Shown: positions 35,425 to 41,801 of the stretch, in pieces | Position numbering within the stretch: the stretch's first letter is position 1 | Layout: each line of letters opens with the position of its first letter | Source: Acetomicrobium thermoterrenum DSM 13490 | Lineage (GTDB): Bacteria > Synergistota > Synergistia > Synergistales > Acetomicrobiaceae | Assembly (NCBI RefSeq): GCF_900107215.1 | Contig: NZ_FNPD01000003.1 | Span: 186,001 to 250,000, forward strand | Length of the DNA stretch: 64,000 nt | Direction of reading: 5' to 3' | Notes under the pieces: generated by a model | Told to the model about the DNA's origin: nothing | Database searches by the model: none | What the model saw: only the letters and a program-made list of their open reading frames with translations | Translations under genes and position numbers: made by a program

Positions 35425-36123
35425 CTATAGATTTCTCAATTCTTCGACGATTTTGCTCTTTTGGGCGACGTTTTCGTCCACTATTTTCACAACCCTCGCC
35501 GGGGCACCAATAACCACGGCATTTTCCGGTACATCTTTTGTCACAACGGAACCTGCACCCACTATGGCACCGTTTCCGATTCTTACTCCCTCCAAGATTA
35601 CGGCGTTGGCGCCGATTAACACTTTGTCTCCAATGATGACGGGAGTGGCGCTGGGTGGCTCTATGACGCCAGCTATGACAGCACCTGCTCCTATGTGGCA
35701 GTTGGATCCGATGATTGCCCTTCCGCCGATCACTGCGTTCATGTCTATCATCGTACCTGCTCCAATGACCGCTCCGATGTTTATCACTGCGCCCATCATG
35801 ATCACCGCACCTTTGCCTATATCGACCATGTCCCTTATTACCGCCCCAGGTTCTATGCGGGCATCGTATTGAGTGAGATCTGCCAATGGAATTGCCGAAT
35901 TTCTCGCTTTTACTTCGATATGATAACAGCTAATGCGTTCTTTATTTTTTTCCAATACATCTGTGATATCCTCGTAATCTCCTATCAAAACACCAAAAGC
36001 GCTACTACCAACGAATTTCGCCTTTTCAACTTCCAGGCCTTCGAGTTCACCTGCAATAAATGCCATGGAAGGGGTAGTTTTTTTTGATTCGCTTATCATC
36101 TTAATTATTTCTTGAGCTTGCAT
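35425..36123 (-). CDS. dapH: Tetrahydrodipicolinate N-acetyltransferase
   Basis: 232 residues. Left-handed beta-helix built of hexapeptide repeats, for example [19 protein letters not shown] around 125-145 and [20 protein letters not shown] later. The N-terminal DapH domain has [14 protein letters not shown] and [10 protein letters not shown]. It acetylates tetrahydrodipicolinate in the acetylase branch of lysine/diaminopimelate synthesis. Its presence tells that this branch, rather than the succinylase or dehydrogenase branch, is used. It overlaps dapB by 19 bp. Confidence 0.94.
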
Positions 36124-36758
36124 CGCAATACCTCCTCGAAGGTGTAAAATCCGGGATTGGCAGTTCGGGCAAATTCCGCAGCCTCTAGAGCACCATAGGC
36201 AAATACGGCTCTGGAGATGGCGCGATGATTGAATGAAAGCACTTCTCCTTCGTTTGCGAAAATCACCGAGTGGTCTCCCGGAATGCCACCCATTCTCAGT
36301 GAATGCATCACAGCAGGTTTTTGCAATGCATCCTGAAGCATGATGGCTGTGCCGGACGGAGCATCTTTCTTTTTATTGTGATGGATTTCGACGATCTCCG
36401 AATCCCAATCCTCAAGCAGCTTTGAATAGCTTGCTAAAATCATTTTTAAAATGTTAACTCCTACGGAAAAGTTGTAACTCTGCACGACCGGAACATCTTT
36501 CCCCAGTTCTCTTAACATCGAAAAGTCGTCCTCGTTCAAACCAGTGGTACCTATGACTAATGCGGACCCATTCTCTACACATAAATTGACGGTATTCGTA
36601 AGAGAACTTCTGTTGGAGAAATCAACGATCACCTCAGGCTGAGTGCCATCGCTCCAGGTCTTTTCGGCATCCACGGTCATACAGAGGGTGTGATCGGCAA
36701 AGGCCTTCTGAATTTCCTGTCCCATCCTGCCGGTCGATCCAACTAGGCCATAACGCAT
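36105..36758 (-). CDS. dapB: 4-hydroxy-tetrahydrodipicolinate reductase, short form
   Basis: 217 residues, shorter than the 240-270 usual in Proteobacteria but close to Thermotoga DapB. Rossmann loop GSTGRMGQ near the N-terminus; catalytic [18 protein letters not shown] with the His pair and the substrate-binding Lys. Deletions fall in the N-terminal cofactor domain; the active site is complete. Overlaps dapA by 16 bp and dapH by 19 bp. Confidence 0.94.
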
Positions 36759-37995: not shown

Positions 37996-38409
37996 TTACT
38001 CGCTTTTTGCACGTTCCAATCTTGTCCTTGCGCGCTTGCCATCGGGATCTCCAAACCACGGCACTATGCAAAGGAACCTAAAGGGTTTGTCCGAGGCGTT
38101 TCCGTAGGAATGAGGAACGTTAGGCGGCACGAAGGCCCAGGACTTTTCGGGCAGGTCCCACGTCACTCCTTCTATGATGACCTGACCGTGTCCTTCTAGG
38201 GTGATCAGGTAGTGCGGCCATTCGTGTTGGTGTTCAGAGATCATCCTGTTTGGCGGAAGGGTAAAGAAACGGACGACGTAGTCATTGAAGAAGCGTCCGG
38301 GCCCGAAGACTATTCGTTTTACCACCCCTTCGCCAAGGGAAAAGGCCTTAAGTTCTGGGAGATCTTCCAACTTTCCTGCCAAAGGTTCCCTTAAATCTTC
38401 ATCCCTCAT
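37996..38409 (-). CDS. Small cupin-domain protein
   Basis: 137 residues. Single cupin_2 domain: HQHEWPHYLITLEGHGQVIIEG supplies the first metal-binding motif and FVPPNVPHSYGN the second, so a metal site is likely. No catalytic family can be assigned. Its ATG overlaps the stop of the aldehyde oxidoreductase (ATGA), so the two are translationally coupled. It may act on a related substrate, stabilise the enzyme or respond to it; that is inference from position only. The lysine operon promoter starts right after its stop. Confidence 0.85.
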   Translation of the reverse strand: MRDEDLREPLAGKLEDLPELKAFSLGEGVVKRIVFGPGRFFNDYVVRFFTLPPNRMISEHQHEWPHYLITLEGHGQVIIEGVTWDLPEKSWAFVPPNVPHSYGNASDKPFRFLCIVPWFGDPDGKRARTRLERAKSE

Positions 38410-41201
38410 TTTTTAGCCTCCTCCAAAGCTTTTAGTATCCTATCTGAAGTTGCAGGAATCGTCTTTAGCCTGATGCCGCAGGCGTTGTGTATCGCATTTA
38501 TTATAGCAGCATGAGGTGCGGAGTGCGGAACTTCTCCCGTGCCGGAAGCGCCAAAGGGACCGAACTCCCTGGGAGATTCCATGTGTATCAGGCGGATATT
38601 GTCGGGTATATCCTTGATGTAAGGAAACCCGCAAGCTAATAGGTTGTTGTGCTTTTTTACGTCCTCGAAGTTTTCCTTCAATGCAAACCCTATGCCCTGG
38701 GCGATGCCTCCGTATAGCTGTCCTTCCACGACGGCGTAGTTATTGATCTTTCCCACGTCACATGCCAGCGTCATGCGATCGACCTTTACCTCTCCTGTCG
38801 TTACGTCCACCGACACTTCTGCTAAAAAGACGCCGAACATGTGGTTGGCAAAGGGATAGCCCTGTCCAGTCTCGTCGTCCATGCCCGTGCAGTGTTGAAC
38901 CTCACCATTTACGTTTCGCAAGGTAGCTTTATAGTAGCCCTCGTAGTAAGTGGGTATGCCTTCGGCGATCATCTCGTCGTAGGTCCTGTACGTGCCGTCG
39001 GGCTTTCGCATGGCGTCAAGCAGTCTTCGGCAGCTGTCCATAATGGCCATCCCGACCATGACCTGAGAACGGCTAGCTGCTGCCGCTCCGCTGTTGGGCG
39101 CTTTGGCAGTATCGTTGCAGACAAGCTTTATCTGGTCAGGCCTTAAGCCCAATGGCTTTAGTGCTTCGTGTGCCGTGCCGACACAGCCCATGTCTGCTCC
39201 CTGTCCGTGATCTTCCCATGTGTTGTAAAGTATCACGCCGTCTTTGGTAAGCTCGATGTGGCTGTTTGCCTCGTCGGGGCCGTCGTCGTTTGAGTTGTAA
39301 ATCCCTATGGCAACGCCCACGCCATGCTTTATCTTATCGGTTGACAGAGCGGCAGCTTGCTTTTTAGCCTCTTCGTAAAGTGGCCGTATATGGGTGACCA
39401 TGGCCTGGAGAGGATAAACTTCCGGCCTTTGACCGCTCGGTAAGGTATCGCCAGGCTGGATTAAGTTCTTCTCGCGAAAATCCAAGGGGTCCATGCCGAC
39501 CTTTTCAGCCAACATGTCTATGGCAAGCTCTCCTCCAAAGTAGGTTTGCGGTCCGCCGTAACATCTAAAGGCCGTGCACCATTTGTGGTTGGTAAAGACA
39601 GTGTAACCGCATCCGCGGATATTGTTTACTCTATATGAGGCAAGCATGAACTGTCCGCCCTTGTTGGTTAAGTCTTGGCTGGATTCGGAATATGGTCCAT
39701 GGTCTACGTACCAGGTATGCTCTAAGCCTACCAGCTTGCCATTTTCGTCAGCTCCAACCCGAATTTTCATCAAAAAGGGCGACCTCTTGGGCGTGCGAAC
39801 GATGTGCTCTTTCATGTCAAGCCTCATATAAACGGGTCTTCCCGTGGCAATTACGCAGGCGCCAATTAAGTGTTCGTTCGTGGGGCCGACCTTGTAGCCG
39901 AATGTGGCACCCATGTTATTTTGTATGACGCGTATCTTTGAAGGCGGCAATCCCAGACCGCGGGCTATCATGAGTTGATGGCGATACACGCAGATGCTTT
40001 TAGTCTGAAGCGTCAGACGACCTTCTTCGTCGAAATAGCCAAATCCGCAATCGGTCTCTATCGTCAAATGAGGTTGCCTCGAACTGTAAAATTCGTCTTC
40101 TACTACGTAGGGAGCTTTGTCTAAGTCTTCCTTTGGATCGTTGCCCTTCTTTATGGGCCTCTTGTTGAATACGTTAGGTATTCCGTCTATATCGGGTATA
40201 TCCTCATGCACCTTTACTGCCCCAGGTGCCATGGCGTCTTTGACGTTTAAAAGCGCTGGGAGTTCTTCGATTTCTACCTTCACGGCATCGGCGGCGGCCC
40301 TTGCGTGCTCTTCCGTGTCGGCGCAAACTATGGCGACTGCCTCTCCCCACTGGCGGATCTTATCTCCTTCCTCTACGAGGATTCGACGTTCCCAGCCGTT
40401 GGTCGTGGCGGTCTTAGATCCCACCTGACCCCTTATTCTGTTCGTGCCCTTGTTTGCGTAGATGTCTTTTGCCGTCACGACCTTATATACACCGGGCATT
40501 TTTTCGGCCTCGAGGAAATCTATCTTTTTGACTATGGCATGGTGAGTTTCAGGGCATACGCAGGCGGCAAAAAGCGTCTCGTCAGGCAGCTTTAACGCTA
40601 TGTCGTCACCGAAGTCCCATGTGCCGGTTGCCTTATATACCGCGCTTGGCCTCGGGTAATGGCTTCCCCATATTTTTCCATCTCGCGTCAGTTCCGAGAA
40701 ATCCGTCATCTCCTCTTCGCCTCGCAAGACTTTAGTGGCAAGCATGACGGCATCTACGATCTGAACATAACCTGTGCATCTGCAGGCGTTTCGGTTCTTC
40801 TGAAACCAATCGCGCACCTCTTCGCGGGTTGGATTTGGGTTTTCGTCGAGCAAGGCTTTGGAGCTCATGATAAATCCCGGCGTGCAAAAACCGCACTGTA
40901 TAGCTCCCGTCTTTACGTAAGCCCACTGAAGCGCGTGAAGCTTGTCGGGCCTTCCTAAGCCTTCAATGGTGAGAATTTCAGCGTCTTCCGGCACCTTATC
41001 CCATCTTACGATGCAGGAACGCACGAGCTTGCCGTTCATTATAACCTCGCATGCTCCGCATTGTCCCGATCCGCATCCAAGCTTTGTTCCCGTTAGCCCG
41101 AGTTGTTTTCGAATTATGTTGACCAGCATTGCGTCAGGTGAGGCAACTACGTGGTGGGGACATCCGTTGACCTTGATGCTTTTTCTCAAATACTGTTTCA
41201 T
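38406..41201 (-). CDS. mop: Aldehyde oxidoreductase, xanthine-oxidase family, Moco and 2x[2Fe-2S]
   Basis: 931 residues from ATG 41201. N-terminal plant-type [2Fe-2S] domain (GCGSGQCGACEV), then the helical [2Fe-2S] domain (QCGFCTPGF, NACRCTGY), then the molybdopterin domains with RQPHLTIETD, TAFRCYGGPQT and the catalytic Glu in GASGTGEVPHSAPHA. No FAD domain: layout and length match Desulfovibrio gigas Mop. Electrons would go to a ferredoxin or flavodoxin. ATG 41201 follows GAGGAGGG and aligns with the family N-terminus. An in-frame TTG at 41261 with AAAGGAGG just upstream could give a 20-residue longer form. Confidence 0.93.
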   Translation of the reverse strand: MKQYLRKSIKVNGCPHHVVASPDAMLVNIIRKQLGLTGTKLGCGSGQCGACEVIMNGKLVRSCIVRWDKVPEDAEILTIEGLGRPDKLHALQWAYVKTGAIQCGFCTPGFIMSSKALLDENPNPTREEVRDWFQKNRNACRCTGYVQIVDAVMLATKVLRGEEEMTDFSELTRDGKIWGSHYPRPSAVYKATGTWDFGDDIALKLPDETLFAACVCPETHHAIVKKIDFLEAEKMPGVYKVVTAKDIYANKGTNRIRGQVGSKTATTNGWERRILVEEGDKIRQWGEAVAIVCADTEEHARAAADAVKVEIEELPALLNVKDAMAPGAVKVHEDIPDIDGIPNVFNKRPIKKGNDPKEDLDKAPYVVEDEFYSSRQPHLTIETDCGFGYFDEEGRLTLQTKSICVYRHQLMIARGLGLPPSKIRVIQNNMGATFGYKVGPTNEHLIGACVIATGRPVYMRLDMKEHIVRTPKRSPFLMKIRVGADENGKLVGLEHTWYVDHGPYSESSQDLTNKGGQFMLASYRVNNIRGCGYTVFTNHKWCTAFRCYGGPQTYFGGELAIDMLAEKVGMDPLDFREKNLIQPGDTLPSGQRPEVYPLQAMVTHIRPLYEEAKKQAAALSTDKIKHGVGVAIGIYNSNDDGPDEANSHIELTKDGVILYNTWEDHGQGADMGCVGTAHEALKPLGLRPDQIKLVCNDTAKAPNSGAAAASRSQVMVGMAIMDSCRRLLDAMRKPDGTYRTYDEMIAEGIPTYYEGYYKATLRNVNGEVQHCTGMDDETGQGYPFANHMFGVFLAEVSVDVTTGEVKVDRMTLACDVGKINNYAVVEGQLYGGIAQGIGFALKENFEDVKKHNNLLACGFPYIKDIPDNIRLIHMESPREFGPFGASGTGEVPHSAPHAAIINAIHNACGIRLKTIPATSDRILKALEEAKK

Positions 41202-41241
41202 GGTTTCCCTCCTCGTTTTTTCGAACGCCCTAAAGCTCAAA

Positions 41242-41335
41242 TATGGCAAACTTCGACCCAAGTAACCTCCTTTCTTTAAATCAACTAATTTGCCATACCA
41301 GCCTTAAAGCATCTATCTAACGCTAAAGGAGGTTA
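41242..41335 (-). promoter_or_regulatory. Two interleaved inverted repeats over an SD in the mop leader
   Basis: Perfect 11-base repeat TAACCTCCTTT (plus 41263-41273) / AAAGGAGGTTA (41325-41335) and perfect 9-base repeat TATGGCAAA (41242-41250) / TTTGCCATA (41289-41297). The pairs cross, so they form either a pseudoknot or alternative folds. In the mop transcript the first pairing would bury the Shine-Dalgarno of the TTG at 41261. Confidence 0.5.
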
Positions 41336-41369
41336 AAAAAGCTGCCTCGCTTAAAGGAGGCAGCTTTTT
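41336..41369 (-). terminator. Leader terminator before mop
   Basis: 8-bp GC-rich stem GCTGCCTC/GAGGCAGC (41341-41348 and 41357-41364) flanked by five A and five T on both sides, so it is symmetric. On the minus strand the 5' half includes CCTCCTTT (41353-41360), which is complementary to the 3' strand of the putative riboswitch P1, as expected for an expression platform. In the other direction it follows no gene. Confidence 0.8.
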
Positions 41370-41412
41370 GCTAAAGACAACTTACGATAGACGTAAGCTT
41401 TCTTTAACATTT

Positions 41413-41512
41413 CCTCCTTTCCAAACATGGGAGGCATCCTCGTTTCCAAAGATACCCATTGGCCAGAAACCATGGATCTCATGAAGGATCTTTAGGTTAA
41501 ATGGCTCGGAGT
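41413..41512 (-). promoter_or_regulatory. Probable molybdenum/tungsten cofactor (Moco) riboswitch
   Basis: Minus-strand element starting ACTCCGAGCC and ending GGAAAGGAGG. P1: CTCC (41511-41508) with GGAG (41417-41414). Inner helix: CC-U-AAAGAT (41496-41488) with ATCTTTGG (41453-41446). Small hairpin GAGG-ATG-CCTC. The segments CTCCGAGCC, GGCCAATGGG, TTGGAAAC, GGATGCCTCCC and GGAAAGGAG look like the conserved parts of the Moco RNA motif as I recall them. It stands before a Moco enzyme and a terminator. A 60-codon frame across it has no Shine-Dalgarno and is not considered a gene. Confidence 0.68.
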
Positions 41513-41801
41513 TATTTGTATATTTTATACACGCAATCGTAACATCAATAAACATTTTATTCAAGATAGTTTATTAATTAAAAAGAAAATTTTTACCTAT
41601 TACAATAACAATAAATGCAACATTGTTGCAAAATATGGCCGATTATGAAAGTTTCGCAAGATACATGAGCAGCTTAAAAATATAATACGAAAAGGAGCCT
41701 TACAGGAATGAAGTGTCAATGAAGGAATTGGCATTTTTCGTAGTATTTTACTTCAATTACTATAATCGTTAAATAGGTAAAATTATATAAGTTTTATAAT
41801 A
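41513..41801. other. AT-rich region between mop leader and recN, with palindrome
   Basis: No gene seen. TGCAACATTGTTGCA at 41616-41630 is a perfect palindrome of 7-base arms around a T, like a dimeric regulator site. A weak promoter for the mop leader (TTATTG, then TATAAA, about 16 apart) lies near 41525-41555. An imperfect stem TACGAAAA/TTTTCGTA encloses about 40 bases near 41690-41740. No clear terminator for recN is visible. Confidence 0.45.

Follow-up and report, generated by a model that had tools for sequence, protein, structure and literature searches.

The mop gene of the window, the whole 64 kb stretch of Acetomicrobium DNA analysed here, is preceded by a leader with a Moco RNA; its membership of family RF01055 and its P3-less subtype are both practically certain. 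The RNA is an additional member of an already known riboswitch class. On balance, it is probable that this Tuco-type aptamer represses mop at high levels of the cofactor it senses, most likely the tungsten cofactor (Tuco), which would make mop expression a response to tungsten starvation. Family membership, the absence of P3, the gene contexts and the mutually exclusive pairings with their conservation were computed; the ligand, the direction of regulation in the cell and the purpose of a metal swap are inferred. The elements of the leader and the genes behind it are the following.

41398-41523, minus strand: Moco RNA aptamer (RF01055), P3-less (cmscan, 74.5 bits; 74.0 bits with model R1, which comprises 46 P3-less, Synergistota-centred RNAs, the window sequence among them)
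41413-41420, minus strand: 3′ strand of P1, AAAGGAGG, the predicted switching strand, held in P1 when P1 is closed and paired with a CCUCCUUU copy when it is open (sequence; constrained folds)
41370-41408, minus strand: intervening hairpin within the predicted anti-terminator loop (fold; pair changes in leaders)
41335-41369, minus strand: intrinsic terminator, AAAAAGCTGCCTC...GAGGCAGC and a T run (hairpin -17.9 to -19.8 kcal/mol; computed, as all RNA energies here, for 37 °C, although the genus is thermophilic)
41325-41332, minus strand: copy 2 of CCTCCTTT, putative anti-Shine-Dalgarno that is predicted to pair alternatively with the 3′ strand of P1 (folds of five leaders)
41224-41313, minus strand: predicted long hairpin that places the second CCTCCT copy opposite the Shine-Dalgarno sequence of mop (z = -5.3 relative to dinucleotide shuffles)
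41208-41214, minus strand: mop Shine-Dalgarno sequence, GAGGAGG (sequence)
38406-41201, minus strand: mop, molybdopterin-dependent aldehyde oxidoreductase of the xanthine-oxidase family, 931 aa (NF045668, 1480 bits, cut-off 1100 bits; MoCoBD_1/2, Fer2, Fer2_2)
37996-38409, minus strand: cupin of 137 aa, whose gene overlaps the stop codon of mop (Cupin_2, E 6e-15)

An earlier note on this DNA had proposed a Moco-like riboswitch in this leader. The Rfam search (cmscan) bears this out, with a full-length RF01055 match (model positions 1-135) at 41523-41398 on the minus strand, which scores 74.5 bits (E 3.7e-16) against a gathering cut-off of 36 bits and represents the sole riboswitch detected by Rfam across the window. 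The conserved core lies at 41511-41414 on the same strand, and the five ordered segments described previously are all in place within 41540-41200. The RF01055 alignment reveals P1, P2, P4, P5 and the conserved junction bases; its inner helices are P2, P2b, which is small, and a P4 of 11 bp with a GAAA cap. This copy has mismatches halfway along P2, where an internal loop UUUA/UUUC forms. P4 carries the GNRA loop GGAAAC, and P2 its putative receptor, CCUAAAG...AUGG. Among the three helices reported as seen in the earlier note, P1 (CTCC/GGAG) was correct and the two inner ones are not helices of the family: CCTAAAGAT/ATCTTTGG (AAAGAT/ATCTTT) pairs bases on the tetraloop-receptor side of P2 with bases in the P4 5′ strand, and the GAGG/CCTC hairpin falls within the 3′ strand of P4. 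The covariation check on homologous leaders, which the note had called for, gave strong covariation of P4 among the 46 P3-less homologues and also supported the terminator stem. P1 is supported by covariation because its sequence varies by type while the pairing is kept: CUCC/GGAG, CCCC/GGGG in P3-containing mop leaders, and UUCC/GGAA in some WOR leaders. Stem P3 is absent, since only a few nucleotides separate P2 from P4, and the window RNA is therefore of the compact form proposed to sense Tuco. This absence had escaped the first reading, as had a predicted second, translational lock. No sigma-70-like promoter match was found directly upstream of the aptamer in the window.

The NF045668 match agrees with the gene identity proposed before, a molybdopterin aldehyde oxidoreductase. 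Aldehyde oxidoreductases of the xanthine-oxidase family are known as Mo enzymes, and the window MOP, judged by its family, would carry Mo rather than W. The overlapping cupin gene is probably in the same operon. In two other genomes (G016/G017; L208, L223, L015:3662-3759), a cupin 39% identical to that of the window adjoins mop in divergent orientation and is preceded by its own P3-less Moco RNA, which links the cupin to the same regulon. Beyond mop and the cupin lies a lysine-synthesis cluster, and a recN-like gene is located upstream. The window also encodes a compact DapB of 217 aa with an intact N-terminus (36105-36758, minus strand), whose length is the same in A. hydrogeniformans and other Acetomicrobium. 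A mop 100% identical to that of the window also occurs on a short contig (LGFQ01000104.1; L254 / L010) assigned to a genome from a different family, probably a binning error.

The termination platform depends on the two possible partners of the P1 3′ strand. As the earlier note had pointed out, AAAGGAGG is fully complementary to CCTCCTTT inside the strong terminator (41369-41335), where copy 1 occupies positions 41360-41353 of the 5′ arm. Folding predicts that P1 and the anti-terminator exclude each other, in keeping with the OFF-type platform suggested there. At 37 °C, the transcript that ends before the terminator folds as the anti-terminator (-57.6 kcal/mol), and in the full leader P1 with the terminator reaches -73.1 as compared to -61.6 kcal/mol for the anti-terminator, a difference of 11.5 kcal/mol. 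None of 20 other terminator arms of the window pairs better with the P1 3′ strand; one further arm ties at -12.8 kcal/mol and is taken to be the element's own terminator. Across 77 distinct leaders, the complementarity between P1 and the terminator arm averages -8.6 kcal/mol against -5.7 in shuffled sequences, and 24 of the 77 stand out at the 5% level; this excess is only moderate because the arms are short and C/T-rich. The window leader's own pairing is strong (-12.8 kcal/mol). In five leaders, the terminator stem contains three pairs with compensatory double changes and retains the GCCTCCT that meets P1, and the intervening hairpin keeps its pairing through one double change and several one-sided changes. 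The window leader is thus likely to follow an OFF logic by transcription termination.

A second lock appears to act on translation, where the duplicate CCUCCUUU would conceal the mop Shine-Dalgarno sequence unless captured by the P1 strand. In the folds of five leaders, forcing P1 closed leaves 1-3% of the Shine-Dalgarno sequence unpaired. Once P1 opens, its strand pairs with copy 2, and the unpaired share of the Shine-Dalgarno sequence rises to 43-53% in the four leaders from Acetomicrobium and to 19% in the leader of G176, a member of another family; for the window, the mean unpaired probability is 0.02 with P1 closed and 0.43 with P1 open. The predicted release is thus partial. The long hairpin is retained in Acetomicrobium and recognisable in G176, and a covariance model of the post-terminator region matches only mop leaders, including that of G176 at E 1.6e-6. 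This second lock is so far a thermodynamic prediction without covariation. The post-terminator region was also considered as a second aptamer and rejected; it matches no Rfam family and its model finds mop leaders only, and it is therefore read as part of the platform.

In the proposed mechanism, ligand binding would close P1, which holds AAAGGAGG and allows the terminator at 41369-41335 to form, and in any transcript that leaks through, the mop Shine-Dalgarno sequence would stay hidden against CCUCCU copy 2. In the absence of ligand, P1 would open and AAAGGAGG would first capture CCUCCUUU copy 1, blocking the terminator, and then, in the longer transcript, take copy 2 and free the Shine-Dalgarno sequence.

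The genome (1.97 Mb, 99.95% complete) contains two copies of RF01055, the mop leader and a second one (L002) that also lacks P3. The latter precedes a TupA-like tungstate-binding protein gene (best match NF041772, 364 bits, below the 400 cut-off), and its terminator 5′ arm pairs with P1 in the same wiring as in the mop leader, so that both RNAs are predicted OFF switches. Genes expected behind Tuco-type RNAs serve MPT synthesis or W transport or encode a W enzyme; the TupA-like gene is of this kind, and mop belongs to a Mo-type enzyme family. Since the sole other genomic copy, wired in the same way, stands before a gene for tungstate uptake, expression of mop would belong to a tungsten-starvation response. 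No RF01055 copy was found on contig C12, which carries a ModAB-like transporter, or on the contigs with further xanthine-oxidase-family genes. The genome encodes five AFOR-type tungsten oxidoreductases, plus fragments, and five WOR paralogues have been reported for Acetomicrobium (PMC12096430).

Whether the P3 class follows tungsten enzymes was considered in 72 Synergistota genomes with a mop relative, taking AFOR matches of E < 1e-55 as strong. P3 classes were assigned from covariance-model matches, match lengths and reading of the P3 hairpins; an early text-pattern estimate, unreliable in several cases, was discarded. Strong AFOR genes are present in all 28 genomes whose mop has a P3-less RNA; the share is 5 of 14 where the RNA contains P3 and 11 of 30 where no RNA was found on mop, some of the latter being truncated contigs. 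For the P3-less class, the Fisher p is 4e-6 against the P3-containing class and 7e-9 against all others, with counts that are phylogenetically non-independent. P3-less RNAs in tungsten users are expected anyway, and the pattern fits, without proving, repression of the Mo enzyme under conditions in which W enzymes are able to take its place. The rule that equates P3 with the ligand has, to our knowledge, never been demonstrated by direct binding and has been a correlation since 2008. It defines two classes, with P3 for the Mo-cofactor and without P3 for the W-cofactor (Regulski 2008, PMC2408646), and the distribution described here fits its prediction on one orthologous gene. In the same work, P3 as a specificity determinant is correlative, the E. 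coli RNA lost control upon deletion of P3 and did not switch its specificity, and the Mo/W cofactor is unstable (PMC2408646).

RF01055 occurs in 92 of 188 Synergistota genomes. Of 196 matches, about 75 stand before a TupA-like gene, the commonest target, and about 38 before mop, followed by transporter parts, a DpiA-like response regulator, MoeA-like proteins, WOR and ModA; the P3-containing RNAs precede mop, MoeA and ModA. P3-containing mop leaders (the second RNA of each of L150, L192, L194, L207, L211 and L217, and L209 and L229) have a CCCC/GGGG P1 and an extended P5 hairpin. Several of them have a downstream strand whose complement is found in the 3′ strand of P1 and again in the Shine-Dalgarno sequence of mop, and these leaders are, from their sequences, apparently translational OFF switches. 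P3-less RNAs with a UUCC/GGAA or similar P1 precede tungsten aldehyde oxidoreductase genes (L101, L102, L116, L219), and in L101, L102 and L219 the P1 strand has a possible partner in a CCUAUCC just 5′ of the Shine-Dalgarno sequence. The leaders of the tungsten aldehyde oxidoreductase genes in L101, L102, L116, L219 and L170 showed neither a clear terminator nor a hidden Shine-Dalgarno sequence. In one Synergistota family, tandem Moco RNAs stand about 310-390 nt apart before TupA-like genes (L110, L119, L120, L121, L127, L128, L129, L134, L137, L148, L153, L175, L177), the second copy being lower-scoring and its P1 diverged where read. An unexpected target for the Moco class is the DpiA-like response regulator gene, preceded by P3-less RNAs in L150, L164, L173, L176, L183, L188, L190, L194, L201, L207, L211, L217, L221, L227, L228, L234 and L236. 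Other P3-less RNAs (L113, L182, L230, L212, L214) precede periplasmic binding proteins of the Peripla_BP_2 and PstS-like families, which are candidate tungstate or molybdate transporters. In L089 (1119-600, minus strand), a Moco RNA and terminator precede an apparently decayed tupA, and the next intact gene is of the aldehyde-dehydrogenase type. Metal-free aldehyde dehydrogenase genes were considered as support for an isoenzyme switch, an argument dropped after locus inspection because that of L089 lies behind the decayed tupA, that of L222 is 674 nt away, and those of L164 and L228 follow the response-regulator gene.

The identity of the ligand separates the favoured reading from its strongest competitor. 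If the RNA sensed the Mo-cofactor, or either cofactor, despite its lack of P3, the repression of mop would be ordinary cofactor homeostasis with no role for tungsten. Such sensing would agree with mop being a Mo-family enzyme, with the correlative status of P3 as a specificity determinant, and with the OFF-wired appearance of P3-containing mop leaders elsewhere in Synergistota. However, the sister RNA in the same genome controls the TupA-like tungstate gene, strong AFOR genes accompany P3-less mop leaders in 28/28 genomes, and the contig of the ModAB-like transporter shows no copy of the RNA, so that this explanation appears rather unlikely and Tuco the likely ligand. Since the P3-containing mop leaders also look OFF-wired, apparently hiding the Shine-Dalgarno sequence when P1 is closed, a swap of W for Mo alone does not explain mop repression, and mop may generally be repressed by whichever cofactor its RNA senses.

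Two further explanations concern the enzyme and the sign of the switch. Were the MOP of this lineage a tungsten enzyme, the switch would simply be part of the W-cofactor regulon; an OFF switch would then shut the enzyme down under an ample supply of the very cofactor it uses, and aldehyde oxidoreductases of this family are generally known as Mo enzymes, which leaves the idea improbable. Its appeal comes from the P3-less RNA, the genome rich in tungsten-type enzymes, and a case of this kind in Syntrophomonas wolfei that was not excludable according to Regulski et al. (PMC2408646). An ON switch, in which the cofactor permits mop expression, would be economical, an apo-enzyme being useless without cofactor; no computed result favours it. 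Closed P1 is predicted to free the terminator and hide the Shine-Dalgarno sequence, open P1 to do the reverse, and the same wiring precedes the tungstate-uptake gene, all of which makes an ON switch very improbable.

Under the preferred reading, repression of mop by plentiful Tuco, tungsten starvation would induce tungstate uptake and mop together, and mop would plausibly be the Mo enzyme that stands in for the tungsten aldehyde oxidoreductases. Such a metal back-up purpose is conceivable, at somewhat less than an even chance. The complete picture, a W-cofactor riboswitch that runs the back-up through tungstate uptake and a Mo isoenzyme, with a double lock built from one P1 strand and two octamer copies, is put forward more tentatively still.

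The window RNA shares with the Moco RNA motif RF01055 (Regulski et al. 2008) the full-length match, the core, P1, P2, P4 with its GAAA loop and P5, as well as typical downstream genes and a terminator platform of the reported type. It differs from the motif overall in the absence of P3, as in the Tuco-type subset, in the internal loop UUUA/UUUC in the middle of P2, and in its host, Synergistota, a phylum that the 2008 abstract does not name. The E. coli moaA RNA belongs to the same aptamer family and shares the OFF logic via the P1 3′ strand, but it contains P3, has its ribosome site within P1, works at the level of translation and does not respond to tungstate, whereas the window leader is predicted to combine termination with a separate anti-Shine-Dalgarno copy. 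A parallel in arrangement, a P3-less RNA before a Mo-type enzyme, is found in S. wolfei before putative sulphite oxidases, for which repression by Tuco was suggested as one possibility (Regulski 2008, PMC2408646). In contrast to that case, the RNA considered here has a sister copy before a tungstate-uptake gene as well as an explicit platform, and the AFOR association was tested over 72 genomes. A library search of titles and abstract openings found no paper describing an association between a riboswitch and tungsten aldehyde oxidoreductases. Synergistota provide a natural test of the P3 rule on orthologous mop genes, since among mop leaders carrying the RNA it is P3-less in tungsten users and mostly P3-containing where strong AFOR genes are missing. 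A Tuco-type RNA before a Mo-type enzyme in a tungsten user suggests a testable metal back-up system, which, if true in cells, would be a riboswitch-run metal-for-metal isoenzyme switch comparable to the B12 riboswitches that control B12-independent enzymes.
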